NCBI GenBank assembly: GCA_903813345.2
Contig: CAIIXF020000005.1
Coordinates: forward strand, 41,143,394-41,207,393
Reading direction: 5' to 3'
Source of the DNA: Owenia fusiformis
Lineage: Eukaryota; Annelida; Polychaeta; Sabellida; Oweniidae
DNA: 64,000 nt
The number at the start of each line of letters is the position of its first letter. The stretch's first letter is position 1. Positions 39,274 through 62,961 of the stretch are shown one piece after another. Position numbers and translations under genes: made by a program. Under the pieces are notes generated by a model that saw only the letters and a program-made list of their open reading frames with translations, was not told the DNA's origin and ran no database searches.

Positions 39274-39378
39274 CCAGTTGTCCGAAACCCAGTTGTCCGA
39301 AACCCAGTTGTCCGAAACCCAGTTGTCCGAAACCCAGTTCTCCGAAACCCAGTTGTCCGAAACCCAGTTGTCCGAAAA
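39274..39378. repeat. 15-bp minisatellite, locus 1 (7 copies)
   Basis: Unit CCCAGTTGTCCGAAA repeated seven times, one copy with CTC for GTC. The same unit occurs in inverse orientation at 44230-44440. Confidence 0.95.
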
Positions 39379-40123
39379 ATTTAGTCATAATTTACCAGAT
39401 AAAGGGGGACGCACCTCAAGCCAGTTTCATGTCATGTATTTGGCAAAATTAATGGCATGGACGCATTCTGATGTATAGATCTCTCTCTCACTTTGAATTG
39501 CATCCATTACACGGCGTTACCAGAATGACAGGAACGGGGGATTTATTTTACATTGTGATTCTAAAAAAGGTCATCAAAACACAATATATATTATGGAACA
39601 GTTGATCTTATCTTATTCAATATATTTTATATAGGCAAAATAAAATGAAACATTTTGAAACCGATAAAATAAGTTAACGCATAAAACTTTAAGAATAAAC
39701 AGTACACATATTACGTTGTCAAAATGTTTCGTCGCATTTAATTTCTTAGTCTCTGTCTCTTATCAAATCGTAAAATGTAAAAGAACAAAACATTCTAAAC
39801 GTAATCACTTAGGATTAACTGGAAACGAAGACAGGCTGTCCTCGTATCAAATTGGATGTTCTCCCATTCGCAAGAAGTTTCATTTTCGCCATGTACTCAC
39901 TTCATCTTTTTGAATCTAATCTCTATTTCTCGAACAGAGTACCTACATGTTCGTACGTTTGATCAAAGTAATTTTACGATGAAGATCATGCAAATCTACC
40001 GACGGAGGAAATGTATATTATACGTTGAAATATATGTCGCAAGAATATAAATTCATATAGAAATTCATATAGGTTTTATTAACAAATCCTGTGTTTGATA
40101 TTGCTTGATATTCATTCGTTTTG
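39379..40123. other. No feature recognised
   Basis: AT-rich sequence between the minisatellite and the LINE 3' end. The small frames have no support. Confidence 0.45.
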
Positions 40124-40722
40124 TATTTTTTTTTTCATTTCTCATTTATTCCAAATATAACATAAAATACATTACAATATTATTGCCTACGTTTTTCAAC
40201 ATTGTCGGCAATATACAAAACATATAAAAATGGAAACAATGAAAATACAATAGATAAGGTACATAATATTAATGGCAGGGAATGTTAGAGGCTTTCAGGG
40301 GGGGGGGGTTAATCTAAAATATCAAGAGCCTGGCAGATGTAATGGCTAACTATATGAATAATTTGTTCATTATCAGTTACAGTGAGATTTCTGTCTCCAA
40401 ATAATAAAAATTGAATTTTTTCATGAGAGTTTAAATTTTGGAAACGATTAAAAAATCCTAAGGTTTTTAGTCCTGCTAGGAGAGTGCATCTTTCTTGTTG
40501 CAGCAGAGGGCAGTTTAATAAAAAGTGATGCGTTGTTTGTTGTATGTCACCACATACGCAGAAAGGGTCATTTACTGTCACAAAGTTATGGGAATATAAA
40601 TGTGCTTTTAGAATCAGTCCAGCTCTAAATCTATTGAACAGAATTTCAATTTTCCTTGGCATTGTCATATTCATTTTATATATTCGTTTTGTATGATTGA
40701 AGGTACAAATGTACATGGTCAT
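40124..40722 (-). mobile_element. LINE 3' end (ORF2 C-terminus, poly-A tail), 5'-truncated
   Basis: The minus-strand frame 40309-40722 ends ORF2 of a non-LTR element: MPRKIEILFNRFRAGLILKA, then CVCGDIQQTTHHFLLNCPLL, a terminal C-x-C-x8-H-x4-C knuckle. It is followed by an untranslated tail with AATAAA and a run of A (T run in the plus strand at about 40126-40136). It is a different family from the two other LINE pieces in the window. Confidence 0.8.
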
Positions 40723-41517
40723 TCCTTAATATATTTGTGAATATTCAGTAGCTAAAACGTATAATTCACAGCTGTGAGGAGTTACATTGATGATTGTGTC
40801 ATTCCAACTATTTCTGACCGTATGGATATGGAATGCGGGCCCAACAGTTGGATACGTATATTCTGACCGTGTGCAATCAGAAACATTATCTTTATACACT
40901 GATGTTTATAATTTCAAAATAACATTAAAAACTGCTTGTAAGGTAAAATTAGGAAATAGTATACGCACAAATCAAACTTAGGATATTTTAAGTTATGTTG
41001 CTTCAATAAATGATGTTGCTTTTTAATGTAGCACGTGTAGAATAATGATATGCATCTCTTTTTTATTTATTTTCTCCTTGTTATGGGGAGAGATTTTCAC
41101 AAATGGTGTTACGTTTCAAATTAACAATAAAAAAAGTTTTCTTAGTAATAATAATAATAATGTGTCAAGGCTTTGATTTATTAAACTCAAAGGAACTTTG
41201 TAATAAATCTATAAGAATGATTTTCTACGGAATAAGGGCGTTTATTTGAAAAACGGTAGTATGGAAAAGTTTCCCCCTCTTAATAAAGACCCATTGGTGT
41301 TTTTTGAATACTTCTTAATAAGAGGAAAACTTAACTGACAATTGGCGAAACATTCGAAAAAAGGAATCAAATAGCTTATCGTCCACCCAAACGGAAAAAT
41401 ATTTTTCCCTATTAATAAAGTACCACAAGCGTTAATTAAATGTTCTTTCAAATAAACGCCCTATGCAAAATAAACGCCCAGTAGGCTCATTTGCGTGAAA
41501 AGCCGGTAGTTGTATTT

Positions 41518-42183
41518 ATACACTCCCCTCCATAAGTTTGGCAACCTTAGCTCCCCCATTGAACTACGTGTTAAAGCCTCTTTACGTTTGAATTTTTATT
41601 TACGATGAAATAGCGTATAATATTGATGGAAACGTAACTTTACTTCATTTCCAATACCTCCAAATTTTCTAGATTTTTTTCCTCCATAACAAGAGATCGA
41701 AAACTGATGATAAATTTGATAAATTTTTTAAAATCGTCATTTCCGTATAATCCAAGGGGAAATAGAGAGTTCGGGGCAAATCAGAATCTTTTCAGTAAAA
41801 GATTCAGCAAAAAATTTTTGGTATAAAAAAATTGAATTGTCTAACTTTTTTGTTCACTAAGTTTTAATTTATTTGATGAATACTAAATTTGTAGCGCTTC
41901 AAAGTCATTTTTGAAAATAATTTTTCGACTCCTGTGTTATTTCAATGGGAGAGTTTTCTTGAAAACCAATTTTGACTTTAAAGCCCTGTTACTTTATTGA
42001 ACCTGAAGAAACATATCAATTCTTTGTTAAATAAAGTTAGCAAATTCAATTGCCTGCCTTACTCATATTTTGCAAGGACTCGGAGGTATTGGAAATAAAG
42101 TCAAGTTACGTTTCCATCAATATTATAAGTTATTTCATCGCCGGTTAAGTAAATAAAAATTCAACTTATGGAGGTGAGTGTAT
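41518..42183. mobile_element. Large foldback element with Tc1/mariner-like ends
   Basis: Outer inverted ends ATACACTCCCCTCCATAAGTT and (right, complement) ATACACTCACCTCCATAAGTT. Inverted matches continue inside, such as AATATTGATGGAAACGTAAC and TTTCCAATACCTCC on both arms. The ends resemble Tc1-type termini (CCAxAAGTTTGG). There is no transposase frame. Confidence 0.8.
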
Positions 42184-42646
42184 CTTCTATTGACGGAGGA
42201 TAATGTTTAAAGGGGCTACAGTGCCTGTGCGTAGGAAAACTACGCTTGCCTTGGGGCCTCCGTACGCCGCAGGGTCGCCGTATAGAAATTATAACTCGGA
42301 GTTATAATATTTGTTCATTTCTGAGGTCCCGTAGAAATCAACTGGCTCAACAAGATTGAATCATTATTTGTCAATGTTTCACGATCACTTTTCATTTAAT
42401 ATTACATCCTAGCACTATGAATAACATTTATAAATTGCCCTGATGTAAATAAAATGAAAAAAGTATTATTTATCAACAGAAATTTAAAATTCACCGTGCG
42501 GCTGCCGTGGGAAGTCCTATTGATCCTCATAAATTATCCCCTACTCATACCAAGTTAAAAACGGTGCAGTAGGCCTATGAGACTCGTAATTGATTTTCAA
42601 ATATCCGGTAGGTCAAAAATTAACGGTCGAAGTTAGGACCGCGTGG

Positions 42647-43156
42647 CAATAGGATAGTTTCTAAATAGCAGAAAAATCAATGAAATCTCGTGCTGCCATC
42701 TTTTATTCAGCTTTTAACTTGGGCTAGAGCTCCATTCATTTACATGTTAAAATCTTGGAAAAGTGGCTTAATTTCATGATTTATCAAAGTTTGTTTGTTG
42801 AATCTGTATAAAACTTGATGAAAATGATATACCACATGATGACCCTGTTTATGTACATGATGTGATTAAACATGCAAATGTTGATTGACATACAAATAAT
42901 CCACAGATTTAAAGAATTTTAGCATTGCATCTATGGACATTTGGCCCAAGTTTTTTAAATTGTCATAGAAAATTATTCAAATTACATAACTGTGTAAATC
43001 AAAGCTATTAAAGGAGAAAACATTTCACTGAATTCAAATATGCCATTTAAAAGAAGGTAATGTAAGTCATTAGAGGTCTAATATGCAAGTCTCTTAAAAT
43101 CTCACGAAAAACGAGATTCAGCGAGATTTCAAAAGCTATATGGAAACTATACTATT
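42647..43156. repeat. Dispersed repeat, copy B (pair of 14869-15374)
   Basis: 510 bp nearly identical to copy A, with one small insertion (AACTTGATGAAAATGATA). Flanks differ completely on both sides, so both borders are mapped by the comparison. It codes for nothing obvious. Confidence 0.9.
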
Positions 43157-44229
43157 ATATCGAGTGACAACGTACTAACGACGAACAGGACGTGGGGCAA
43201 AGGTTGAACTGTCTCAGAATGTATTGGGAACGAGGTAGAAATAAAGAATTCATATGAACGAGTCATGCAAGATACTAAAGAGATACAAATGCATTTTGAT
43301 ACTCAGTTTTTGGGCAATTAAAACTCCCTGTCTGCATATAGTTATTTATTGTCCGGTGTATAATTTTGAAACATTATCCTAATTTTTCACAAAACTTTTT
43401 TTGATTCTGCAATAGTTAATGGTTGACATCTATGGCACACTAAAAACGAATTTTTTTTATGCAGGGTACGTACATGATACAGATCAAATCTTGGCTCTAC
43501 TACAAACGATTACACGCTTACTTCAACAGTTCAATATATCGCAAAAACACAGTTTTGATTTTGAACAATATCACCAATGGGAGAAATTCTTAAATCTAAA
43601 TGTTTGGAAAGGAATACGTTTCTACTAAAACATACAAACCTCTTATATTATGATGAAAAAAGGATAGACATCTTATATATATATGCCACATATATAAGTT
43701 ATACGAAATTAGCATATTTTATTGATTTATCGAAAATTTGGACGAAATCTTAACAATTGGTGGTACTGAACAATCAAAATCTTCTTTTTAGATATTTTTC
43801 AGGGTAGAAATATTATCAATTGATATTGGAAAACATAATTAACCATATTTTATTGAGAAAAGGGAATGAAAAAAATTATCAAATGAATATATATAATTGT
43901 CACGGACGTCCATACGTTATTCTAATGAGATAGATATTCCTTTCGCCAGAATATTCTCATCGACTGTGATAGTTGTCTAAAATGTTGGCGGCAGTCTTGA
44001 ATTTTCACCAAGAAGGAGTGCGATTCGTGCTGGACAATGCGGTTCAAAATTTGTAGAATGTCCATATAAGTGTATGTGCCGAGAATTTAGTAAGAATATA
44101 TATATGATCGTGAACTTTCGGACCCATTATTGACCGGGCTAACCGATGTCAACGTGATACCAATGTTATGCTGTCCTGATTCGCGAAGTTGCGACAAGAT
44201 TAGTTACTAAGACATTTAATTTTTTAATT
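43157..44229. other. No feature recognised
   Basis: AT-rich sequence. The frame at 43419-43628 has no family features. Confidence 0.45.
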
Positions 44230-44440
44230 TTCGGAGAACTGGGTTTCGGAGAACTGGGTTTCGGAGAACTGGGTTTCGGAGAACTGGGTTTCGGACAACT
44301 GGGTTTCGGAGAACTGGGTTTCGGACAACTGGGTTTCGGACAACTGGGTTTCGGAGAACTGGGTTTCGGACAACTGGGTTTCGGACAACTGGGTTTCGGA
44401 CAACTGGGTTTCGGACAACTGGGTTTCGGACAACTGGGTT
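44230..44440. repeat. 15-bp minisatellite, locus 2 (14 copies, inverse orientation)
   Basis: Unit TTTCGGA(G/C)AACTGGG repeated about 14 times, the reverse complement of locus 1 at 39274-39378. GAG and GAC variants are mixed along the array. Confidence 0.95.
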
Positions 44441-45481
44441 GACCCCGAACAGATAAGAAACTATTTTGTTCTGAATAAGTGCAAATACAGTTTGATCCTA
44501 TATGCAATGATTGATGCTGCCAATATTACAATGATAATACTATTAAATCACTTAGTGGTATTTTCAACGCACCTGCCATTGATATAAAACATATTATAAC
44601 ACTTATTACGCACAAATCATCTGGAGGACTATAATTCAAATAACCAGCATAGCCCCATTTCATACCCAGGATTTAATTCATGTCATTCTATAGATATAGT
44701 AACCATAGCAACAAAAATAATTCTGTTTTATATATGTTTTGCTTCTACTCTCCATCGTGCAATCATTTATAATTAATGAAATAATATTCTTTTATATATA
44801 TACTGGTTAGTAATTGTACAGTAAATGTTTTTATGTGCATGGTATTTGTTCACTCTGTGGAGCAAACTAAAATATTGCTTTAAAGGGGCAACAAATATTA
44901 CTGATGTGTTGAGAGTAACTTTCTCAAAGAATTGTCACCATTTTTTACATTTTTAGCTCATAAATTCCATATCATGGATATTTTCTAAAAAGTCAGTTCT
45001 CACAATGTTGACTAACATCATGACAGTGTTTCAATATTTAATGTTTTTTTGGCAATCATTTTGAAAACTAGACGTCCCCATTTTTTATATCAGATATATC
45101 TTATATCATGCTTTTTGTAGATTGCTTCCAACAATTTACACACCCTATTCTTTGTTGTCCCTTTAAGAGAACACCACCCTGTAAACATCCCTGATACAAC
45201 AAAGGGGTTAACTAAACAGTAATTTCACTGTAAGAATGTTAATAAATGTGTTTTCTCACTTTCTAATCAGGGGTTACACTATTTTCTAGCTAGTGTAAAG
45301 GTTAATTGAAAAACGATGTAGAAAAACTGATTAATCATTTTCTACTGTATTATGTAATTAGGTATAGAAAAACAATATTATTCAATGAAAATGAATAAAC
45401 ACTGAAGAAAACAGATTCTGTGAATTACAACTCCTTTAACAAATCAAATATCTATTACATTGATTAGGTAGACATGCTACT
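44441..45481. other. No feature recognised
   Basis: AT-rich sequence with no supported gene, RNA or element. Confidence 0.45.
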
Positions 45482-45714: not shown

Positions 45715-46255
45715 CCACACACTGCGTGCAACATCACTGCCAGCCATATAATAATAATATAAACCCATTTGGCTTATTACAGAAATAGGATCAAGCATCT
45801 AATCAAAACGGATGCAATGAATTAAGATGGATGCAATGGATAAACAAAGACAACATTCTCTGCATTGAGCTTTTATATAAAATATGTCTTTAAGCAGGGA
45901 ATATGACAACATGACTGTACTTATTGACCCAAATAAAGGGACACCCGCCTTTACATATTTTTCAGAATATGGAGAAAGGATGAAAAGTAGGTGAAACATT
46001 ACATATTTCGTATTGTTTAGAATGTAAAAAAACATGATAGAAATTCATGAATAAACAAACATACATTTAAAGACTGCAGTTTTTTAAATTAAATTTCATT
46101 TATATTATCAAAATTAGTGTTTTGCATAGTACTAGTTAGGTTTAATAGTTTTGATATTTTCACTAAGTTTTAATTGAAACAAATATACAAATACAGTATT
46201 GCAAAAATTACAATATACAACTTTGATAAATGTTTATTTCGCCTTTGTGACCTTG

Positions 46256-46352: not shown

Positions 46353-48079
46353 GAGGTCATTAGCATAGCATTGAAAACTTGTATTCACAGAGAAACTATA
46401 TTTTAGATCAATATGACATTAATTTGAACTAGTAAAACAATTGTTGAAAATACTGATGAACAAAGATAAGTAGTAGAAGTATGTTCAAACACTTATTGCT
46501 ATAGATTAATCTGCTAATATCTTGTTTTAGGACATTCCTAATATCCTACCATTATCTAAATGCGCTTTATCACTACTTCTAGTCAATATGAACAAACAGA
46601 GATAAAGGATGCCATCAATGTCACTTCGATAAAATAGATTTCCTGTAGTTCTCGTCAAATGGTTTACCATTTATTGGTTCAATTCCAGATTCTTTCTACA
46701 ATTAAGGCACACTGTAGAACAAAGTTTATCATTCAAAATTGTTTATTGCATCTACCATTTTTGAAACATTTATTTAATTCTTAAATTAATTAATAGATGA
46801 ATAAAATATATTTGGAATCAATACATCTCAACATTTCACAGGTATTCATAGGCATAGGGCTATATTTTGAGTTGGTACGCACACTTGGTGATGCCTGCAT
46901 CGCGGGGGGTCCGGGGATATTCTCCCCCGGGAAATTTTTTTTCAAGGATTTTATTTGATGGAATCCAAGCGTTTTTATCAACTTTAAATGTTGACAATGG
47001 TAAACATACAGATACGTTAGGAAGCATCAATAAATTCGCAAATAAATTGATGCATTTTAACACAATTTTAATTTTTTCAAATTCAATGACAAAATCGTGC
47101 AAATATAAGTAAGAATATTGCTGATATCATGCTTATGTAAGCAAGATTCAAATTGTAATTCTAAATCATGATTGGTTGTTGAAAGTAATAACTTGTCAGA
47201 ATTATATTGATATATCTTTGTTTTGGCTGAATTTATAGTAGCGTAGGGATTCCCCTGTACTAGAACAAACTGAGGTCTAAAATTAAAATAGTCGTCATTA
47301 ATCATAAGAGTGCAGCAAGATCTTTACAATGTTTGAATATCAGCTTAATATAAATAATATTTATATTGGATATAAATAATTAATAAATAATGAGAATTAT
47401 ATATAATTAAATATAATTACGTACTGACCGTACTTACATAATGTTTCCATGACAATATTTATTTTATTTTCTGGAAAATCAGGTTACTTTTACATTGATA
47501 TTTTATCTGTTTTGAGATGTGGGAAGTTACTTGTAGAGCTTTGTAAACAGGTAAAAGATAATGATTAATTAATCAGGAATTTATTTTATCTCAGATTCAG
47601 CATGATGTTGCAAATAATAAACAGAAAATGACAAACACAAATGATAAGATTCAGGAATATGATCCTTTCCCGTAAACAGAAAAAAAATCAAATGTAAAAC
47701 AACAAATAAAATTGATTAAGGTCAAGTCAAGAGGCATATGATTTCACAGAGCGAACTGCAGATTAATTACATTTTGTTTCTCCTGAGCAAATTGATTTGA
47801 CATAAATATTGAAAAATTCAAAGATAATTCTATCCTTAGGCCTATAGCATCCACTTATTTAATTTTGCTTCAGAAGGACAAGCTACAAATGTGAACCCAT
47901 CCACTGGGAAATGGGCCAAATAGATACCCAAATAAGAAGAAATACTAAAATATGAATGTGTTTTTCCATATATATGATACTACACTGAGGTCTTTTGATT
48001 GTTTATTTTTAAGGTTTTATTGCCACACAACCTTATTGAAAAGGACTGCAGTAGTTCATAAATGATGTTATTCTTGCAG
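46353..48079. other. Upstream of the TM1 exon; first exon of the GPCR not found
   Basis: AT-rich with a GC-rich patch at about 46898-46937 that looks like the end of a dispersed repeat. The receptor with exons at 48080 and 60074 needs at least one more upstream coding exon ending in phase 1. I could not identify it here. Confidence 0.45.
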
Positions 48080-48147
48080 ATCAGGAGTACTTGGAATTAA
48101 TGGTGTTGATGACCATATGTACAACCAGTGTCATTGGCAATAGCCTG
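48080..48147 (+). CDS. GPCR TM1 exon (68 nt), founder-like first unit of the 78-bp array
   Basis: Acceptor TTATTCTTGCAG precedes ATCAGGAGTACTTGG, and donor CTG|GTAAGAG follows. Read in phase (two bases complete a codon from an upstream exon) it encodes QEYLELMVLMTICTTSVIGN then SL. This is a membrane helix ending in the GN motif of class A TM1. Spliced in phase 0 to 60074 it gives GNSL-VIAAVMKKRSMRNPTNY, a normal TM1 to first-loop sequence. There is an in-frame TAG just upstream and no ATG between, so the exon must be spliced at its 5' side. All later units lack an acceptor, so this is the only copy with both splice sites. Splicing here is inferred and not demonstrated. Confidence 0.75.
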
Positions 48148-51100
48148 GTAAGAGATTGTATGTATTACTTGGAATTAATGGTGTTGATGACTATATGTAC
48201 AACCAGTGTTATTGGCAACAGCCTGGTAAGAGATTATATGTATTACTTGGAATTAATGGTGTCGATGACCATATGTACAACCAGTGTCATTGGCAATAGC
48301 CTGGTAAGAGATTATATGTATTACTTGGAATTAATGGTGTCGATGACCATATGTACAAGCAGTGTCATTGGCAATAGCCTGGTAAGAGATTACATGTATT
48401 ACTTGGAATTAATGGTGTCGATGACCATATGTACAACCAGTGTCATTGGCAATAGCCTGGTAAGAGATTATATGTATTACTTGGAATTAATGGTGTCGAT
48501 GACTACATGTACAACCAGTGTCATTGGCAATAGCCTGGTAAGAGATTATATGTATTACTTGGAATTAATGGTGTCGATGACTACATGTACAACCAGTGTC
48601 ATTGGCAACAGCCTGGTAAGAGATTATATGTATTACTTGGAATTAATGGTGTCGATGACCATATGTACAACCAGTGTCATTGGCAACAGTCTGGTAAGAG
48701 ATTATATGTATTACTTGGAATTAATGGGGTTGATGACCATATGTACAACCAGTGTCATTGGCAACAGCCTGGTAAGAGATTATATGTATTACTTGGAATT
48801 AATGGTGTTGATGACCATATGTACAACCAGTGTCATTGGCAACAGCCTGGTAAGAGATTATATGTATTACTTGGAATTAATGGTGTTGATGACCATATGT
48901 ACAACCAGTGTCATTGGCAACAGCCTGGTAAGAGATTACATGTATTACTTGGAATTAATGGTGTCGATGACCATATGTACAACCAGTGTCATTGGCAATA
49001 GCCTGGTAAGAGATTATATGTATTACTTGGAATTAATGGTGTCGATGACCATATGTACAACCAGTGTCATTGGCAATAGCCTGGTAAGAGATTATATGTA
49101 TTACTTGGAATTAATGGTGTCGATGACCATATGTACAACCAGTGTCATTGGCAATAGCCTGGTAAGAGATTATATGTATTACTTGGAATTAATGGTGTCG
49201 ATGACCATATGTACAACCAGTGTCATTGGCAATAGCCTGGTAAGAGATTGTATGTATTACTTGGAATTAATGGTGTTGATGACTATATGTACAACCAGTG
49301 TTATTGGCAACAGCCTGGTAAGAGATTATATGTATTACTTGGAATTAATGGTGTCGATGACCATATGTACAACCAGTGTCATTGGCAATAGCCTGGTAAG
49401 AGATTATATGTATTACTTGGAATTAATGGTGTCGATGACCATATGTACAAGCAGTGTCATTGGCAATAGCCTGGTAAGAGATTACATGTATTACTTGGAA
49501 TTAATGGTGTCGATGACCATATGTACAACCAGTGTCATTGGCAATAGCCTGGTAAGAGATTATATGTATTACTTGGAATTAATGGTGTCGATGACTACAT
49601 GTACAACCAGTGTCATTGGCAATAGCCTGGTAAGAGATTATATGTATTACTTGGAATTAATGGTGTCGATGACTACATGTACAACCAGTGTCATTGGCAA
49701 CAGCCTGGTAAGAGATTATATGTATTACTTGGAATTAATGGTGTCGATGACCATATGTACAACCAGTGTCATTGGCAACAGTCTGGTAAGAGATTATATG
49801 TATTACTTGGAATTAATGGGGTTGATGACCATATGTACAACCAGTGTCATTGGCAACAGCCTGGTAAGAGATTATATGTATTACTTGGAATTAATGGTGT
49901 TGATGACCATATGTACAACCAGTGTCATTGGCAACAGCCTGGTAAGAGATTATATGTATTACTTGGAATTAATGGTGTTGATGACCATATGTACAACCAG
50001 TGTCATTGGCAACAGTCTGGTAAGAGATTATATGTATTACTTGGAATTAATGGTGTGGATGACCATATGTACAACCAGTGTCATTGGCAACAGCCTGGTA
50101 AGAGATTATGTGTATTACTTGGAATTAATGGTGTTGACGACCATATGTACAACCAGTGTCATTGGCAACAGCCTGGTAAGAGAATATGTATTACTTGGAA
50201 TTAATGGGGTTGATGACTATATGTACAACCAGTGTCATTGGCAACAGCCTGGTAAGAGATTATATGTATTACTTGGAATTACGGTGTCGATGACTACATG
50301 TACAACCAGTGTCATTGGCAACAGCCTGGTAAGAGATTATATGTATTACTTGGAATTAATGGTGTCGATGACTACATGTACAACCAGTGTCATTGGCAAT
50401 AGCCTGGTAAGAGATTATATGTATTACTTGGAATTAATGGTGTGGATGACCATATGTACAACCAGTGTCATTGGCAACAGCCTGGTAAGAGATTATGTGT
50501 ATTACTTGGAATTAATGGTGTTGACGACCATATGTACAACCAGTGTCATTGGCAACAGCCTGGTAAGAGAATATGTATTACTTGGAATTAATGGTGTCGA
50601 TGACCATATGTACAAGCAGTGTCATTGGCAATAGCCTGGTAAGAGATTACATGTATTACTTGGAATTAATGGTGTCGATGACCATATGTACAACCAGTGT
50701 CATTGGCAATAGCCTGGTAAGAGATTATATGTATTACTTGGAATTAATGGTGTCGATGACTACATGTACAACCAGTGTCATTGGCAATAGCCTGGTAAGA
50801 GATTATATGTATTACTTGGAATTAATGGTGTCGATGACTACATGTACAACCAGTGTCATTGGCAACAGCCTGGTAAGAGATTATATGTATTACTTGGAAT
50901 TAATGGTGTCGATGACCATATGTACAACCAGTGTCATTGGCAACAGTCTGGTAAGAGATTATATGTATTACTTGGAATTAATGGGGTTGATGACCATATG
51001 TACAACCAGTGTCATTGGCAACAGCCTGGTAAGAGATTATATGTATTACTTGGAATTAATGGTGTTGATGACCATATGTACAACCAGTGTCATTGGCAAC

Positions 51101-54100
51101 AGCCTGGTAAGAGATTACATGTATTACTTGGAATTAATGGTGTTGATGACCATATGTACAACCAGTGTCATTGGCAACAGTCTGGTAAGAGATTATATGT
51201 ATTACTTGGAATTAATGGTGTGGATGACCATATGTACAACCAGTGTCATTGGCAACAGCCTGGTAAGAGATTATGTGTATTACATGGAATTAATTGTGTT
51301 GACGACCATATGTACAACCAGTGTCATTGGCAACAGCCTGGTAAGAGAATATGTATTACTTGGAATTAATGGGGTTGATGACTATATGTACAACCAGTGT
51401 CATTGGCAACAGCCTGGTAAGAGATTATATGTATTACTTGGAATTAATGGTGTCGATGACTACATGTACAACCAGTGTCATTGGCAACAGCCTGGTAAGA
51501 GATTATATGTATTACTTGGAATTAATGGTGTCGGTGACTACATGTACAACCAGTGTCATTGGCAATAGCCTGGTAAGAGATTATATGTATTACTTGGAAT
51601 TAATGGTGTCGATGACCATATGTACAACCAGTGTCATTGGCAACAGTCTGGTAAGAGATTATATGTATTACTTGGAATTAATGGTGTTGATGACTATATG
51701 TACAACCAGTGTCATTGGCAACAGCCTGGTAAGAGATTATATGTATTACTTGGAATTAATGGTGTTGATGACCATATGTACAACCAGTGTCATTGGCAAC
51801 AGCCTGGTAAGAGATTATGTATTACTTGGAATTAATGGTGTTGACGACCATATGTACAACCAGTGTCATTGGCAACAGCCTGGTAAGAGAATATGTATTA
51901 CTTGGAATTAAAGGTGTTGATGACTATATGTACAACCAGTGTCATTGGCAACAGCCTGGTAAGAGAATATGTATTACTTGGAATTAATGGTGTCGACGAC
52001 AATATGTACAACCAGTGTCATTGGCAACAGCCTGGTAAGAGAATATGTATTACTTGGAATTAATGGGGTTGATGACTATATGTACAACCAGTGTCATTGG
52101 CAACAGCCTGGTAAGAGAATATGTATTACTTGGAATTAATGGTGTCGACGACCATATGTACAACCAGTGTCATTGGCAACAGCCTGGTAAGAGAATATGT
52201 ATTACTTGGAATTAATGGTGTTGATGACTATATGTACAACCAGTGTCATTGGCAACAGCCTGGTAAGAGAATATGTATTACTTGGAATTAATGGGGTTGA
52301 TGACCATATGTACAACCAGTGTCATTGGCAACAGCCTGGTAAGAGAATATGTATTACTTGGAATTAATGGTGTTGACGACCATATGTACAACCAATGTCA
52401 TTGGCAACAGCCTGGTAAGAGAATATGTATTACTTGGAATTAATGGTGTTGATGATCATATGTACAACCAGTGTCATTGGCAACAGCCTGGTAAGAGATT
52501 ATATGTATTACTTGGAATTAATGGTGTTGATGGCCATATGTACAACCAGTGTCATTGGCAACAGCCTGGTAAGAGATTATATGTATTACTTGGAATTAAT
52601 GGTGTCGATGACCATATGTACAACCAGTGTCATTGGCAACAGCCTGGTAAGAGAATATGTATTACTTGGAATTAATGGTGTTGATGACCATATGTACAAC
52701 CAGTGTCATTGGCAACAGCCTGGTAAGAGATTATATGTATTACTTGGAATTAATGGTGTTGATGACCATATGTACAACCAGTGTCATTGGCAACAGCCTG
52801 GTAAGAGATTATATGTATAACTTGGAATTAATGGTGTTGATGACCATATGTACAACCAGTGTCATTGGCAACAGCCTGGTAAGAGATTATATGTATTACT
52901 TGGAATTAATGGTGCTGATGACCATATGTACAACCAGTGTCATTGGCAACAGCCTGGTAAGAGAATATGTATTACTTGGAATTAATGGGGTTGACGGCCA
53001 TATGTACAACCAGTGTCATTGGCAACAGCCTGGTCAGAGATTATGTGTATTACTTGGAATTAATGGTGCTGATGACCATATGTACAACCAGTGTCATTGG
53101 CAACAGCCTGGTAAGAGAATATGTATTACTTGGAATTGTGTTGATGACCATATGTACAACCAGTGTCATTGGCATCAGCCTGGTAAGAGAATATGTATTA
53201 CTTGGAATTAATGGGGTTGACGGCCATATGTACAACCAGTGTCATTGGCAACAGCCTGGTCAGAGAATATGTATTACTTGGAATTAATGGGGTTGACGGC
53301 CATATGTACAACCAGTGTCATTGGCAACAGCCTGGTCAGAGATTATGTGTATTACTTGGAATTAATGGTGCTGATGACCATATGTACAACCAGTGTCATT
53401 GGCAACAGCCTGGTAAGAGAATATGTATTACTTGGAATTAATGGGGTTGACGGCCATATGTACAACCAGTGTCATTGGCAACAGCCTGGTCAGAGATTAT
53501 GTGTATTACTTGGAATTAATGGTGCTGATGACCATATGTACAACCAGTGTCATTGGCAACAGCCTGGTAAGAGAATATGTATTACTTGGAATTAATGGTG
53601 TTGATGACCATATGTACAACCAGTGTCATTGGCAACAGCCTGGTAAGAGAATGTGTATTACTTGGAATTAATGGGGTTGAGGACCATATGTACAACCAGT
53701 GTCATTGGCAACAGCCTGGTAAGAGAATATGTATTACTTAGAATTAATGGTGTTGATGATCATATGTACAACCAATGTCATTGGCAACAGCCTGGTAAGA
53801 GAATATGTATTACTTGGAATTAATGGTGTTGATGATCATATGTACAACCAGTGTCATTGGCAACAGTCTGGTAAGAGATTATGTATTACTTGGAATCAAT
53901 GGGATCGATGACCATATGTACAATCAGTGTCATTGGCAACAGCCTGGTAAGAGAATATGTATTACTTGGAATTAAAGGGGTTGATGACCATATGTACAAC
54001 CAGTGTCATTGGCAACAGCCTGGTAAGAGAATATGTATTACTTGGAATTAATGGTGTTGATGACTATATGTACAACCAGTGTCATTGGCAACAGCCTGGT

Positions 54101-57100
54101 AAGAGAATATGTATTACTTGGAATTAATGGTGTCGACGACCATATGTACAACCAGTGTCATTGGCAACAGCCTGGTAAGAGAATATGTATTACTTGGAAT
54201 TAATGGGGTTGATGACTATATGTACAACCAGTGTCATTGGCAACAGCCTGGTAAGAGATTATATGTATTACTTGGAATTAATGGTGTTGACGACCATATG
54301 TACAACCAGTGTTATTGGCAACAGCCTGGTAAGAGATTATATGTATTACTTGGAATTAATGGGGTTGATGACTATATGTACAACCAGTGTCATTGGCAAC
54401 AGCCTGGTAAGAGATTATGTATTACTTGGAATTAATTGTGTTGATGATCATATGTACAACCAGTGTCATTGGCAACAGTCTGGTAAGAGATTATGTATTA
54501 CTTGGAATTAATGGGATTGATGACCATATGTACAACCAATGTCATTGGCAACAGCCTGGTAAGAGAATATGTATTACTTGGAATTAATGGGATTGATGAC
54601 CATATGTACAACCAATGTCATTGGCAACAGCCTGGTAAGAGATTATGTATTACTTGGAATTAATGGTGTCGACGACCATATGTACAACCAGTGTCATTGG
54701 CAACAGCCTGGTAAGAGAATATGTATTACTTGGAATCAATGGGATTGATGACCATATGTACAACCAATGTCATTGGCAACAGCCTGGTAAGAGAATATGT
54801 ATTACTTGGAATTAATGGGGTTGATGACTATATGTACAACCAGTGTCATTGGCAACAGCCTGGTAAGAGAATATGTATTACTTGGAATTAATGGGGTTGA
54901 CGGCCATATGTACAACCAGTGTCATTGGCAACAGCCTGGTCAGAGATTATGTGTATTACTTGGAATTAATGGTGCTGATGACCATATGTACAACCAGTGT
55001 CATTGGCAACAGCCTGGTAAGAGAATATGTATTACTTGGAATTAATGGGGTTGATGACTATATGTACAACCAGCGCATTGGCAACAGCCTGGTAAGAGAA
55101 TATGTATTACTTGGAATTAATGGGGTTGACGGCCATATGTACAACCAGTGTCATTGGCAATAGCCTGGTAAGAGATTATATGTATTACTTGGAATTAATG
55201 GTGTCGATGACCATATGTACAACCAGTGTCATTGGCAACAGCCTGGTAAGAGATTATATGTATTACTTGGAATTAATGGTGTTGATGACCATATGTACAA
55301 CCAGTGTCATTGGCAACAGCCTGGTAAGAGATTATATGTATTACTTGGAATTAATGGTGTCGATGATCATATGTACAACCAGTGTCATTGGCAATAGCCT
55401 GGTAAGAGATTATATGTATTACTTGGAATTAATGGTGTCGATGACCATATGTACAACCAGTGTCATTGGCAACAGCCTGGTAAGAGATTATATGTATTAC
55501 TTGGAATTAATGGTGTCGATGACCATATGTACAACCAGTGTCATTGGCAACAGCCTGGTAAGAGATTATATGTATTACTTGGAATTAATGGTGTCGACGA
55601 CCATATGTACAACCAGTGTCATTGGCAACAGCCTGGTAAGAGAATATGTATTACTTGGAATTAATGGTGTCGATGACCATATGTACAACCAGTGTCATTG
55701 GGAACAGCCTGGTAAGAGATTATATGTATTACTTGGAATTAATGGTGTCGACGACCATATGTACAACCAGTGTCATTGGCAACAGCCTGGTAAGAGAATA
55801 TGTATTACTTGGAATTAATGGTGTCGACGACCATATGTACAACCAGTGTCATTGGCAACAGCCTGGTAAGAGAATATGTATTACTTGGAATTAATGGTGT
55901 TGATGACCATATGTACAACCAGTGTCATTGGCAATAGCCTGGTAAGAGATTATATGTATTACTTGGAATTAATGGTGTTGATGACCATATGTACAACCAG
56001 TGTCATTGGCAACAGCCTGGTAAGAGAATATGTATTACTTAGAATTAATGGTGTTGACGACCATATGTACAACCAATGTCATTGGCAACAGCCTGGTAAG
56101 AGAATATGTATTACTTGGAATTAATGGTGTTGATGATCATATGTACAACCAGTGTCATTGGCAACAGTCTGGTAAGAGATTATGTATTACTTGGAATTAA
56201 TGGTGTTTATGACCATATGTACAACCAGTGTCATTGGCAACAGCCTGGTAAGAGATTATGTATTACTTGGAATTAATGGTGTTGATGACCATATGTACAA
56301 CCAGTGTCATTGGCAACAGCCTGTTAAGAGATTATATGTATTACTTGGAATTAATGGTGTGGATGACCACATGTACAACCAGTGTCATTGGCAACAGTCT
56401 GGTAAGAGATCATATGTATTACTTGGAATTAATGGTGTCGACGACCACATGTACAACCAGTGTCATTGGCAATAGCCTGGTAAGAGAATATGCATTACTT
56501 GGAATTAATGGGGTTGATGACCATATGTACAACCAGTGTCATTGGCAACAGCCTGGTAAGAGATTATATGTATTACTTGGAATTGTGTTGATGACCATAT
56601 GTACAACCAGTGTCATTGGCAACAGCCTGGTAAGAGAATATGTATTACTTGGAATTAATGGTGTTGATGACCATATGTACAACCAGTGTCATTGGGAACA
56701 GCCTGGTAAGAGATTATATGTATTACTTGGAATTAATGGTGTCGACGACCATATGTACAACCAGTGTCATTGGCAACAGCCTGGTAAGAGAATATGTATT
56801 ACTTGGAATTAATGGGGTTGATGACCATATGTACAACCAGTGTCATTGGCAACAGCCTGGTAAGAGATTATGTATTACTTGGAATTAATGGTGTTGATGA
56901 CTATATGTACAACCAGTGTCATTGGCAACAGCCTGGTAAGAGAATATGTATTACTTGGAATTAATGGTTTTGATGACCATATGTACAACCAGTGTCATTG
57001 GCAACAGCCTGGTAAGAGATTATATGTATTACTTGGAATTAATGGGGTTGATGACCATATGTACAACCAGTGTCATTGGCAACAGCCTGGTAAGAGAATA

Positions 57101-58811
57101 TGTATTACTTGGAATTAATGGGATTGATGACCATATGTACAACCAATGTCATTGGCAATAGCCTGGTAAGAGATTGTATGTATTACTTGGAATTAATGGG
57201 GTTGACGACCATATGTACAACCAGTGTCATTGGCAACAGCCTGGTAAGAGATTATATGTATTACTTGGAATTAATAGTGTCGATGACCATATGTACAACC
57301 AGTGTCATTGGCAATAGCCTGGTAAGAGATTATATGTATTACTTGGAATTAATGGTGTCGATGACCATATGTACAACCAGTGTCATTGGCAATAGCCTGG
57401 TAAGAGATTATATGTATTACTTGGAATTAATGGGGTTGACGGCCATATGTACAACCAGTGTCATTGGCAATAGCCTGGTAAGAGATTATATATAATACTT
57501 GGAATTAATGGTGCTGATGACCATATGTACAACCAGTGTCATTGGCAATAGCCTGGTAAGAGATTATATGTATTACTTGGAATTTATGGGGTTGACGGCC
57601 ATATGTACAACCAGTGTCATTGGCAATAGCCTGGTAAGAGATTATATATAATACTTGGAATTAATGGTGTTGATGACCATATGTACAACCAGTGTCATTG
57701 GCAATAGCCTGGTAAGAGATTATATATAATACTTGGAATTAATGGTGTTGATGACCATATGTACAACCAGTGTCATTGGCAACAGCCTGGTAAGAGATTA
57801 TATGTATAACTTGGAATTAATGGTGTTGATGACCATATGTACAACCAGTGTCATTGGCAATAGCCTGGTAAGAGATTATATGTATTACTTGGAATTAATG
57901 GGGTTGACGGCCATATGTACAACCAGTGTCATTGGCAACAGCCTGGTAAGAGATTATATGTATTACTTGGAATTTATGGGGTTGACGACCATATGTACAA
58001 CCAGTATCATTGGCAATAGCCTGGTAAGAGATTATATGTATTACTTGGAATTAATGGGGTTGACGGCCATATGTACAACCAGTGTCATTGGCAATAGCCT
58101 GGTAAGAGATTATATATAATACTTGGAATTAATGGTGTTGATGACCATATGTACAACCAGTGTCATTGGCAATAGCCTGGTAAGAGATTATATGTATTAC
58201 TTGGAATTAATGGGGTTGACGGCCATATGTACAACCAGTGTCATTGGCAACAGCCTGGTAAGAGATTATATGTATTACTTGGAATTAATGGGGTTGACGA
58301 CCATATGTACAACCAGTATCATTGGCAATAGCCTGGTAAGAGATTATATGTATTACTTGGAATTAATGGGGTTGACGGCCATATGTACAACCAGTGTCAT
58401 TGGCAATAGCCTGGTAAGAGATTATATATAATACTTGGAATTAATGGTGCTGATGACCATATGTACAACCAGTGTCATTGGCAACAGCCTGGTAAGAGAT
58501 TATATGTATTACTTGGAATTAATGGTGTTGATGACCATATGTACAACCAGTGTCATTGGCAACAGCCTGGTAAGAGATTATATGTATTACTTGGAATTAA
58601 TGGTGTTGATGACCATATGTACAACCAGTGTCATTGGCAATAGCCTGGTAAGAGATTATATGTATTACTTGGAATTAATGGTGTTGATGACCATATGTAC
58701 AACCAGTGCCATTGGCAACAGCCTGGTAAGAGATTATATGTATTACTTGGAATTGTGTTGATGACCATATGTACAACCAGTGTCATTGGCAACAGCCTAG
58801 TAAGAGAGTAC
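48080..58811 (+). repeat. Tandem array of about 139 copies of a TM1 exon end with its splice donor (78/76-bp units)
   Basis: Each unit is about 60 bp of exon (TACTTGGAATTAATGGTGTT...ATTGGCAATAGCCTG) followed by 18 bp of intron start (GTAAGAGATTATATGTAT), in total 78 bp. Units with GTAAGAGAATATGTAT are 76 bp long and dominate between about 51.8 and 57 kb. Almost every unit keeps TTSVIGNSL in one frame and GTAAGAG at its end; rare exceptions are CTGTTAAGAG near 56323 and GTCAGAG variants. Blocks recur at higher order: GATTGTATG at 48154 and 49246 lies 1092 bp (14 units) apart. The first and last borders share GAGTAC (48085-48090 and 58806-58811), a possible duplication seed. Long frames through it (847 codons from 48091) are a consequence of the 78-bp period. 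Confidence 0.95.
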
Positions 58812-60073
58812 ACAGTCTTTGTTGTTATTCAGTCTAAACAACCTTTCTTCATTGATTACCTTGAATCCCCTTTGCAAAATCAATTGTAATATTAAGGATG
58901 ATTGTGGAGGATGTGTATATAAGCAATAAAGAAAAAAAAGTATCGTCAGTTATGTCAATTAAATTGATTAAAATATTGAACCCTAAATTATAATACCTTG
59001 ATTTGCAGGTATGTTTGTTTTTCCAAGACTTAATCAATAAATTGTATGCAGTTACAATCAAGTAGAAACCTGCATACCTTGAAATAACAGCTATCTGCTA
59101 CCCTTTTCAAGAATTTGGTTTGAGAATCTAGTTACAAACTAACAAAGCTCTCTTTCAAGATGTGAAGTCAAATGAATGCAAGGGGTATGGATGCTAATAA
59201 GAGCTAATTCTTTGAACTCCATAAAAAGTCAAACCACTTTTGGGGTCATCTACTTCGTATCAGCATCATTTTATCCTACATAGACAGAGGGTAATAATTA
59301 TTATTATTATTTATTTGGCATCAGGGTTGTATGATTAAATCAATTTTTGGTTATTGCTATTTATATTGTTTATACATACTTAATATCATGTTTATTTTAT
59401 GTTACATGTATATCTTTCTATGAAGTTCTAGATCTACTTTTCTTGGAATTATCTTGAATATACATTTGCACAAATGACAATTAAAAAGTAATAAGAAAGA
59501 GTAGGGAGAAAACATTCCAAAGCAACCTATTAAGTCTGTTGATTCATAATTAAATAATAAATATCTTTAATGGACCAGGATTATTTAGGAAGAGAATAAT
59601 GCAGCTTTAAGTAAAATTTGTGTGATTAAATTAATTTTGATTTTTGCTAGTGTTACTTATTTCCTTTGAGTTGATTTCTCTAGATCTACATTTCCTGTAC
59701 TTAACATTAATGGATAATAGATGATTGCATGAATGAAATTTCAGAAGCAATATAGAACAATAGGAAGGAGAAAGGAGGGAGTATTTCAAAACAACCTATT
59801 AACAAACTTGAAGAGCCAATTGCTTTTACCCTAATCTTAAATAACCCTTAAATAACCCTTTTCTTGTTTTTATCATTGGAAATGTTATTCAGAATGCACC
59901 AGAGAGGGTCTAAATTTGAAAATTTTCTGGGGGCATAATACCCCCAGACTCCCCTCGGTTGCGCCGCATGCATCGCATGCTTCACGCACGACCCATCCGT
60001 ACCCAAAAGTCGCCCCCACTCTTGGGAAATCTTTCTGACGCCTCTGTAATCTGCTCATTTGAAATTGTTTCAG
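58812..60073. other. End of the GPCR intron, with a GC-rich dispersed repeat near the acceptor
   Basis: AT-rich down to about 59900. Then come CTGGGGGCATAATACCCCCA and CGCCGCATGCATCGCATGC, a GC-rich patch that looks like a repeat end, and finally the acceptor TTTGAAATTGTTTCAG at 60058-60073. Confidence 0.55.
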
Positions 60074-60961
60074 GTTATAGCAGCTGTAATGAAGAAGCGC
60101 TCAATGCGTAATCCAACCAACTATCTTATTGTCAACTTGTCGATGTCAGACCTTCTCTTTGTCATGATGACCCCATTTATCATGACGACTAGGATTACAG
60201 TCAATTGGAAACTAGGAGGCTTTCTCTGTAGAATAGTGTCTTATATACAATTTTTCTCTGCAGCCAACTCAATCTTAACCATGATGTTAATAAGTATCGA
60301 CCGCTATCGATCAATATGTATTATAAATGTGACAAAATTGACAACAAAAGTCGGAGCAGTTATTATATGCTGTGTATGGATGGTATCATTGACGATGACC
60401 CTCCCGATAGCATTATTCAGCATCGAAACACATATCACACAATGGGGAAAAGAGCATGTATTCTGTGGTCTTGTTTGGCCAAAGGAGGCAAATCCTGACA
60501 TATATTTCTCTGTCCTTGCCTTATTCCTCTTTATTATGCCAGTCACAACATTGATAGTAAACTACTGCAGAATTTTCAACACTGTCAGAAAATCAAGCAA
60601 AGTTAAGGTCATCAAGGTCACAAGTAAAGATAACCATAAAGAACAAGATCAGATCTCATCTAAACAAATAAAACTATTGAAAATGTTTGTATTGATTGTG
60701 GCATTGTTTATAGCGATGATATTACCATTCTTTGCAGCCTCGTTTGTAGTGCTTTTTACGGACACAATGACCTCAACTATATTTACTTGGTCTGTGACCT
60801 TGACATTGGCAAATACAGCCATCAATCCAATCATATATGGATATTTCAATACCAAGTTCAAACAAGCATACAAAGAGTTGCTCTGTAAAAGGTGCACAAG
60901 AAAAGTGGGCCATGAAAGAAGTATCAGCAATTCACAAGGAACACATACAGATGGAGAATAG
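60074..60961 (+). CDS. Class A GPCR, main exon (TM2 to C-terminus), peptide-receptor-like
   Basis: 295 codons and a TAG. It starts at a GTTTCAG acceptor with VIAAVMKKRSMRNPTNYLIV, the first inner loop. TM2 has LSMSDLLF (Asp26 of this exon), then NWKLGGFLC with the TM3 cysteine, and a canonical DRY at 76-78 (ISIDRYRSI). ECL2 has the partner cysteine in VFCGLVW. TM5 has LFLFIMPVTTLIVNYCRIF, the third loop is Lys-rich, TM6 keeps its proline (AMILPFF) but lacks the usual CW. TM7 has NTAINPIIYGYF. Together with the exon at 48080 it makes a near-complete rhodopsin-class receptor lacking only the N-terminus. The overall pattern is that of invertebrate neuropeptide receptors; I cannot name the ligand. 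It is intact, which argues that the gene still works despite its repeat-filled intron. Confidence 0.9.
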   Translation, partial: VIAAVMKKRSMRNPTNYLIVNLSMSDLLFVMMTPFIMTTRITVNWKLGGFLCRIVSYIQFFSAANSILTMMLISIDRYRSICIINVTKLTTKVGAVIICCVWMVSLTMTLPIALFSIETHITQWGKEHVFCGLVWPKEANPDIYFSVLALFLFIMPVTTLIVNYCRIFNTVRKSSKVKVIKVTSKDNHKEQDQISSKQIKLLKMFVLIVALFIAMILPFFAASFVVLFTDTMTSTIFTWSVTLTLANTAINPIIYGYFNTKFKQAYKELLCKRCTRKVGHERSISNSQGTHTDGE

Positions 60962-61577
60962 ATGTAAGGTTAAACTTGTAACAAAACATCTGACCTTGAA
61001 AATCTTTATCAGCACAAGAATCATCCAATGCAGCTTTTGCCAAGGGGGTTCACTTTTAAAAAAATCCAGGGGGTTCACATTTAACAACTTTGGCCCAAAA
61101 TCAATTTAAAAGTGTTCAGAATGGTGAAAAACCACATGATTTTGAAAGAAATTTGGGCCAGGGAGAGGTTCGCTCGAGCCGCCTGCACCCCCTGGTTTTG
61201 AAGCTGATCCAATTTATAGTACCAAAATGACAGGTCTCAGACTGTGATAGGTCCCCATAATCTATTGAGAACCTCATTATGTTAGCTCACAGATGAAACA
61301 ATTTTTATGTTGTCCTATACAGATTTGCTTTGAGTGCTTTCTCATTTTGATATGCTAACAGAAAAAATAATAAACCAGTTTAGGTCTATAACGCAGAGAT
61401 ATATTTTAGGAAACAATTTTTGCTCATAAACAACACTAGCCTACATTGTTGTATAATCTATGGCATATTGTACAAACGGAATAAATATACATTGTAAAAA
61501 TTTGATATAGTTCTTAGTGTTAAAATAATATGATGTCAATAAAAGCCATTATGTTACTACATACCAGCAAATATGTA
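60962..61577. other. 3' flank of the GPCR
   Basis: Probable 3' untranslated region and flank. Possible polyadenylation signals AATAAA near 61480 and 61539. No gene is recognised. Confidence 0.5.
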
Positions 61578-61846
61578 CAGGGTGGGCCAAAAAACAATAC
61601 CCAACTTCAAATCAGGATAAAAATAGTTACGTTCAATATGGTACATTGGCTTATATATCATTTTAAAGGTTATGTATTTTCAAACAATTTGGTATACCTT
61701 AACTAATGATTTTATGACATAGTGTTATACACCAAATTGTTTGGAAATGTATTACCTATAAATGATATATAAGTCAATGTACCATATTGAACGTAACTAT
61801 TTTTATCCTGATTTAAAGTTGGGTATTGGTTTTTTGGCCCGCCCTG
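61578..61846. mobile_element. 269-bp foldback element (MITE) with about 115-bp arms
   Basis: The left arm begins CAGGGTGGGCCAAAAAAC, and the right arm is the complement of CAGGGCGGGCCAAAAAACC. The arms stay complementary through AAAAATAGTTACGTTCAATA and ATGGTACATTG to the CAAACAATTTGGT stretch, so the transcript would fold into one long hairpin. CAGGGTGGGCCAAAA ends are common in mariner-like elements. The left flank is TA; a right TA is not preserved. Confidence 0.88.
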
Positions 61847-62961
61847 AACATGTGTAATAATTAATACAAAAAATTAATAACTTTTCATCATACATGTACA
61901 CAAACATACATCATGGGATCAAAAAAGAGTACAAAATATTGAAATCCTCAAAATGCACGCCAATTTTTTACAAGGCTAAATCTGAAAAAGAACATAATAT
62001 GGAAGATTTTAGATGAAGAAATCTTCACATTTTAGAAAATAAACATAAAATAGAATGTTGATAGCAAAAAATATTTTAAATTGTGACAGGTACTCTAAAC
62101 TGGTCTTTGGTGCCCCTTTAACATAACATTCATATAATATCTTAATAATATATTTCATGGAATATATTATATAAAAAGGGTATATTGATAAAATAAAATA
62201 TTTAACTAAAATGTAGTATACATATAATTTACATGCTTGAATGAACTGGAAGAACCTGTATATACTTTTTCTACATCTGGATGACACCTGAGTCAGAACC
62301 CAACTGTAATATTACACATTATATTCATTAAGTCACAATCAAGATTAATAGCATAATGGTCTGGAAATTATGAGACCTTTTAAAAAAAATCATTAACAGA
62401 CAATCTGTATTAATACATCATTTCATAATGGCACCCTAATGGCACAATGTTGTGAAAAATATTATTACACAATATTCAACAAAATCAAAAACATATCCTT
62501 GGCAATACATCATACACTGGTACAAAATACAATTGCATGTGTTGCAATATAATGCAAGGCATTAACATGCAAAATGTCACAACCTGCCATTTGTTAGATG
62601 CCTGTTACAGACACCTAACACCTACTGCAAAACACCAACCAATGTGGGAGACCATAACAATAACATAACACCATAACATAACAATATGTCACTACTTCTG
62701 GTAAAATACAAGCCTGATATAAGACATGAGAGATTTATTATTCTTATACATGTACAAAACTTTTGTATATAGTCATGGGCTTTCAAAAGAAAGTACATGA
62801 GTATAACAAATTAACATAACATTAAAAAATTAAAATTAAATTAAAAGAAAATTGTGTTTAATATTGTGACAGTGGTGGGTAGTTATTGTTCAAAGCACTA
62901 GGTCTTGAAGGACTTTTCATTGTACATGGGAACAAACTGATTTCATTGTTGGCTCAATGAT
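61847..62961. other. Region between GPCR and NHLRC2-like genes; probable 3' untranslated region of the latter
   Basis: AT-rich. On the minus strand a possible AATAAA lies near 62734, about 230 bp past the NHLRC2-like stop codon. No other gene is supported. Confidence 0.5.

Follow-up and report, generated by a model that had tools for sequence, protein, structure and literature searches.

In the annelid Owenia fusiformis, a gene for a class A G protein-coupled receptor (GPCR) was found to carry, within one intron, 139 tandem copies of the end of its own exon for the first transmembrane helix (TM1) together with the 5′ splice site that follows it. The gene lies in a stretch of 64,000 nucleotides (the window; positions 41,143,394 to 41,207,393 of contig CAIIXF020000005.1, assembly GCA_903813345.2), and all coordinates given below are those of the window. 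The array is probably a minisatellite that was born from a working exon-intron border and that is spliced mostly from the first of its donors. An origin of this kind had been proposed in an initial annotation of the window, and the make-up of the units, the flanks of the array, and the homology of the unit to TM1 support it at the level of sequence.

The receptor gene and its TM1 exon

The TM1 exon has a length of 68 nt (48080 to 48147, plus strand), is preceded by TTATTCTTGCAG (acceptor 48079/48080), encodes the outer part of TM1 as (n)AT QEYLELMVLMTICTTSVIGNSL, and ends in phase 0 before the donor GTAAGAG. The main coding exon (exon 3; 60074 to 60961, plus strand) follows TTTCAG at the acceptor 60073/60074; its 888 nt, including the stop codon, encode 295 amino acids that extend from VIAAV at the end of TM1 to the C-terminus of the receptor. 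With splicing from donor 1, the two exons would be separated by an intron of 11,926 bp (48148 to 60073, plus strand). When positions 48082 to 48147 were joined to 60074 to 60961, the translation read QEYLELMVLMTICTTSVIGNSL followed directly by VIAAVMKKRSMRNPTNYLIVNLSMSD and onward until the stop, and was matched by Pfam 7tm_1 at 174.1 bits over the full profile (1 to 260 of 260), with the match beginning at GNSL and spanning the junction. Exon 3 alone scored 165.5 bits; the score rose to 174.1 bits with the addition of the TM1 exon (exon 2) and reached the same value when the last unit of the array was substituted for the first. Class A GPCRs are characterized by GN in TM1, D in TM2, DRY, and NPxxY, and the joined translation was found to include GNSL, NLSMSD, DRY, and NPIIY. 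Matches to the PDB included SSTR4 (2.9e-34) as well as NPFF2 and NPY2 (both 2.6e-32), with orexin receptors at similar scores, among the best 60 of 800 matches. By this homology, the predicted gene product is a peptide-receptor-like class A GPCR. The initial annotation had described the 68-nt exon with its acceptor, a TM1 ending in GNSL, and the donor GTAAGAG; had let the next exon start at VIAAV and continue the receptor; and had assigned the product to class A. All of these assignments are supported by the sequence.

Further support for the TM1 exon came from a profile built from 26 of 29 paralogue loci (no motif was recovered from L024, L025, and L030, which were left out), which was used to score the 22 residues preceding each GT that had 66 open bases before it. 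The donor at 48148 scored 17.5 bits, which is within the leave-one-out range of the 26 paralogues (9.3 to 44.6 bits) and is subject to a small bias, as the query used to find the paralogues included the exon 2 peptide. None of the 1873 open GT sites outside the plus strand of the array (both strands, whole window) reached 17.5 bits, the best of them scoring −1.9 bits. Thus, the paralogue profile and the absence of any equally good site outside the array support the 68-nt exon as a TM1 exon. Since TM1 and TM2 were found within one open frame in 26 of the 29 paralogue loci, this gene alone appears to have the intron within the set compared.

Anatomy and location of the array

Tandem Repeats Finder placed the array at 48088 to 58807 (plus strand), with a period of 78 bp, 138.9 copies, and 94% matches. 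A refined parse gave 139 units, 77 of them distinct in sequence. Most units measure 78 bp (88 units) or 76 bp (46 units); three are 72 bp long, and lengths of 77 and 75 bp each occur once. Both analyses bore out the claim that an exon end and its 5′ splice site are present in about 139 copies over 10.7 kb, with the right edge of the array corrected to 58807 and the start of the first unit set 8 bp into the exon. Because the first unit begins at this point, the copies have donors and no acceptor. The composition proposed for the unit also held, as the common unit opens with a nearly identical copy of the final 60 bp of the TM1 exon and continues with the start of the intron from GTAAGAG, of which 16 to 18 bp are present in the common forms. 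The tandem units span the exon-intron boundary, as do those of the amphioxus repeats known as mirages (see below). On its left, the array is flanked by the acceptor side of the TM1 exon and, on its right, by the continuing intron.

The border sequence GGTAAGAG was intact in 132 of the 139 units, while the remaining seven carried GGTCAGAG (five units), GTTAAGAG, in which the first intron base is altered (one unit), or AGTAAGAG (the last unit). The GT of the donor was in place in 138 of the 139 units, as is expected of a minisatellite that supplies donors, and the many near-identical donors facing one acceptor (60073/60074) that had been described earlier are indeed present. The last unit (58744 to 58807, plus strand), which ends in the donor AGTAAGAG and runs into unique intron, lacks the AATG found in most units and is the most diverged of all, with 12 differences from the unit consensus compared with two in the first unit and a median of four. 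Boundary units that escape homogenization are a trait of mirages; here the last unit stands out by its divergence and the first does not. The array was also found to be confined to one place. For a 28-base pattern that crosses the border, the count was 105 both in the assembly (498,259,871 bases in 525 contigs, with the window on contig C5) and in the window, which places all of its occurrences in one array. Anatomy, single location, homology to TM1, and donor integrity are observed properties of the array, as are the frame of its donors and the recent amplification described below.

These findings bear on two other accounts of the array. First, a satellite may have preceded the gene, which would then have recruited one unit as an exon; this is the intron-gain model proposed for mirages, which is in print for the globins of amphioxus (PMC3087553). 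Such an order of events is scarcely credible here, as the unit resembles the TM1 of 26 paralogues, copies of the border pattern are confined to this array, and the course from exon to array is the simpler one. Second, the copy number may be a false expansion generated during assembly, since exact blocks of 816 and 547 bp within the array could partly be assembler duplications. An artefact is very improbable, however, given that the 77 distinct units stand in irregular order and that exon 3 has a single full match genome-wide, with the next of 125 scored matches at 30% identity.

Donors and predicted splicing

On a simple donor matrix, the donor of the array is strong, with a score of 5.3 that was reached by one of 805 GT sites in the region of 30.8 to 48.0 kb. 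When counted from the acceptor at 48080, donors 1 to 27 and 29 to 32 (31 of 139) would each yield an exon that stays in frame and has no stop, whereas donor 28 shifts the frame and every exon ending at donor 33 or beyond includes a stop. The frame is open to 50634, and donors 2 to 27 and 29 to 32 (48166 to 50634, plus strand) keep the frame of the receptor. The exon would measure 68 nt with donor 1 and 68 + 78k nt with donor k+1 while the units are 78 bp, a length that corresponds to 26 codons. Exon definition favors a short exon. As the copies have a donor and no acceptor, only the first unit, beside the acceptor 48079/48080, makes an exon of normal short length. We propose that a functional exon-intron border in the TM1 of a peptide-receptor-like class A gene was duplicated in tandem and that the duplicated border may have grown, by unequal exchange or slippage, into the minisatellite of 139 units, which today accounts for about 89% of the intron. 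Donor 1 would be favored by exon definition, such that splicing of 48148 to 60074 would yield a normal receptor, and rare use of the next donors would add 26 residues in frame for each unit. We infer this choice of splice site, the mechanism of growth, and the near-neutrality of the array from the features described here.

Growth and variation of the copies

The 5′ part of the array includes exact self-matches of 816 bp at a lag of 1092 and of 547 bp at lags of 1165 and 2257, and exact blocks of this length show recent block duplication. Neighboring units were found to be slightly more alike than distant ones, with a similarity of 0.942 at lag 1 and 0.918 at lag 80. The alleles in the exonic 60 bp were 24 nonsynonymous and 12 synonymous, compared with an expected synonymous fraction of 0.269 (P = 0.45). 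Variation in the copies looks neutral, and the tests, which are weak, gave no good evidence of selection. The reading of the array as a coding repeat was considered and rejected, as the length of 47 of the 139 units is not divisible by three, the variation appears neutral, and a stop is met after 850 residues from the acceptor. Hexamers of GAGTAC bound the array (48085 to 48090 and 58806 to 58811), and an origin by microhomology at GAGTAC may be suggested. This origin predicts a first unit of 69 bp compared with the 78 bp present, and the additional stretch, which is TTATATGTAT-like, bears a resemblance to CATATGTAC within the exon.

Long runs of 78-bp units were detected at both ends of the array, covering units 1 to 26 and units 118 to 138 (21 units). 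When the inner units were put in random order (20,000 shuffles), the in-frame run after unit 1 had a mean of 1.9, and a run of at least 25 was obtained at a frequency of 5e-5. This low frequency, together with the 26 stop-free codons of the 78-bp unit and the 31 of 139 donors that are in frame without a stop, is what might be seen if the array were a working device of splice choice, in which donors 1 to about 32 each take a variable share of the splicing, zero to many extra TM1-like segments of 26 residues are inserted, and array length tunes the output or topology of the receptor. In human ABCA7, the length of a variable number tandem repeat (VNTR) is likewise reported to alter expression and splicing (PMC5954066). 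We nevertheless find such a device improbable, as the spread of blocks makes the order of units non-random and a 21-unit run of 78 bp is present at the far end as well; hence, the in-frame run beside the exon needs no selection. Moreover, no sign of constraint at the protein level was found, and exons many hundreds of bases long are poorly defined, as established mainly in vertebrates. It is similarly a distant prospect that the array would serve as a length-variable donor bank, giving rise to receptors with zero, one, or two and more extra TM1-like helices, whose topology would be extended or flipped, and with array length in the population tuning this mix and the amount of normal receptor.

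Upstream exon and reading frame of the first unit

Several points weigh against a minisatellite that arose from a working border and is spliced mostly from its first donor. (i) No upstream coding exon was singled out among the ATG-to-donor open stretches of 30.8 to 48.0 kb. Stretches of at least 20 amino acids with a donor score of at least 0, in all phases, numbered 31 on the gene strand versus 23 on the control strand, so that no candidate first exon stands out. The candidate MSLSREYDNMTVLIDPNKGTPAFTYFSEYGERMK in phase 1 (45884 to 45986, plus strand) is a lead only, since the control strand carries such stretches at a similar frequency; codon usage discriminates poorly in this case, with exon 3 scoring 0.08 bits per codon. 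(ii) AATG is present in 136 of the 139 units (missing from units 66, 111, and 139), and the form of the unit that lacks it, which reads SGVLGIVLMTICTTSVIGNSL, scored 25.95 versus 17.5 bits on the TM1 profile. (iii) The gain on 7tm_1 was the same for the forms with and without AATG (174.1 bits each). (iv) The donor segment of the units displayed 3 alleles versus 6.2 expected, a difference that is not significant (P = 0.14). (v) In human ABCA7, expression is reported to be lower and the following exon to be skipped more often with longer VNTRs (PMC5954066); this precedent is not neutral, and an array of the present size thus need not be silent.

The correct frame may be carried by the present first unit or by a form 4 bp shorter; were the upstream phase 2 instead of 1, the present first unit would be out of frame. 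In the latter case, the ancestral exon would have been without AATG (SGVLGIVLMTICTTSVIGNSL), the AATG form would have spread from the array to the exon by conversion, and the gene would be broken or rescued by other splice sites. Apart from the difference in profile score noted above, the outer 17 residues scored 14.7 bits without AATG versus 6.5 bits with it (the 26 profile members, which were not left out, score 16.2 to 31.3 bits), and the unit at the right boundary is without AATG. We regard a frame-shifted first unit as unlikely, since the present form, at 17.5 bits, scores within the span of the 26 genuine TM1s when each is left out in turn, exon 3 is intact, and AATG is carried by 136 of the 139 units; one loss of AATG also seems more parsimonious than its gain, as its flanks show no slippage repeat by eye.

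Other features of the window

Within the intron, a dispersed repeat was detected at 59890 to 60053 (plus strand), with at least 39 other matches genome-wide at 74 to 83% identity, the longest of which end about 20 to 27 bp before the acceptor. The possibility that a mobile repeat supplied the acceptor was rejected, as none of the 39 other matches listed for this repeat extends as far as the acceptor. No Rfam family was found at gathering score in 47500 to 61500. A hairpin-like element, identified by eye, lies at 61580 to 61850 and consists of two inverted copies of about 100 bp starting GGGTGGGCCAAAAAAC. A second class A GPCR is encoded at 29815 to 30732, on the same strand and in a single open frame (7tm_1, 119.7 bits), and a retrotransposon-like open reading frame with an RNase H domain (41.9 bits) is found at 35284 to 36723. 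The region of 39265 to 44446 comprises about 5.2 kb between inverted 15-bp tandem arrays (CCCAGTTGTCCGAAA and TTTCGGACAACTGGG, 7 and 14 copies), with 100% complementarity in one pair of arms of 105 nt; this region is perhaps a mobile element with repeat-built ends. At 20449 to 25483, an array with a 27-bp period and about 186 copies has a unit of nine potential codons (RLDARLERQ-like), and on each strand a reading frame stays open over hundreds of residues, such as one of 880 amino acids on the minus strand.

Relationship to known systems

The gene offers a natural experiment in 5′ splice-site choice, with up to 138 near-identical donors, one acceptor, and one short exon. Junction counts for each donor would measure directly how equal sites are chosen according to their distance from the upstream acceptor and the order in which they are transcribed; such choice is usually studied with few competing sites. 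The repeats of human IFI6 (6-16) are short and few. Like the array described here, the IFI6 minisatellite provides repeated donors, and its downstream units are reported to act as alternative donors that give three mRNA species (PMC4526556, citing Turri 1995). The VNTR in intron 18 of human ABCA7 is similar in that it adjoins an exon and starts with the GT of the exon donor; its first donor is canonical, retention of one unit through use of the next donor is an observed isoform, and an allele of 9711 bp is mentioned (PMC5954066). The ABCA7 unit differs in that it is 25 bp long, intronic, and without an exonic coding part, and one retained unit is out of frame in ABCA7 and in frame here (PMC5954066).

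A further likeness is offered by the mirages of amphioxus (Adh3, the globins BflGb6 and BflGb9, TnC, and PGBD5), in which an exon-intron boundary is repeated in tandem in the manner of a minisatellite, the boundary in BflGb9 being a 3′ exon boundary, and for which length instability and undisturbed regular splicing are reported (PMC3087553, PMC3902484). The haplotypes of BflGb6 have 6 and 3 units and belong to a chordate, in contrast to the 139 units and 10.7 kb in a GPCR gene of an annelid. In keeping with such a host, the erythrocruorin linker family Eryth_link_C, which is tied to annelids, has 3 matches in the assembly, each above the family cut-off and one interrupted by a stop, compared with none in 14 control genomes. 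The Rogers model of intron gain by tandem duplication of segments bearing AG/GT (PMC3087553) shares with our case a tandem duplication across a splice border; unlike in that model, no sign of a new intron was found here. Variable repeats at exon-intron boundaries are also discussed for human paralogues (PMC2812944). Dog MCHR2 is a receptor gene with an intronic VNTR of a different kind (33 bp, 1 to 3 copies), for which the matching text describes no donor array (PMC8912139), and the metallothionein genes of earthworm have first-intron minisatellites, for which the text likewise describes no splice-border repeat (PMC12783039).

Among the matches listed in the open-licence literature, a comparable donor array was found neither in a receptor gene nor in an annelid gene. 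The statement of the initial annotation that no such receptor gene had been described thus stands among these matches, but the kind of array is itself in print (mirages, PMC3087553 and PMC3902484; ABCA7, PMC5954066; IFI6, PMC4526556). The array suggests that boundary minisatellites of the mirage type reach beyond lancelets and may form most of an intron. Overall, tandem copies of exon borders (mirages), VNTRs that bear donors, and minisatellites that bear donors are known, while the novelty lies in the scale of the array, the TM1-coding tail that each unit carries, a unit length of 26 codons by which 31 donors remain in frame and free of stops, and the annelid host.

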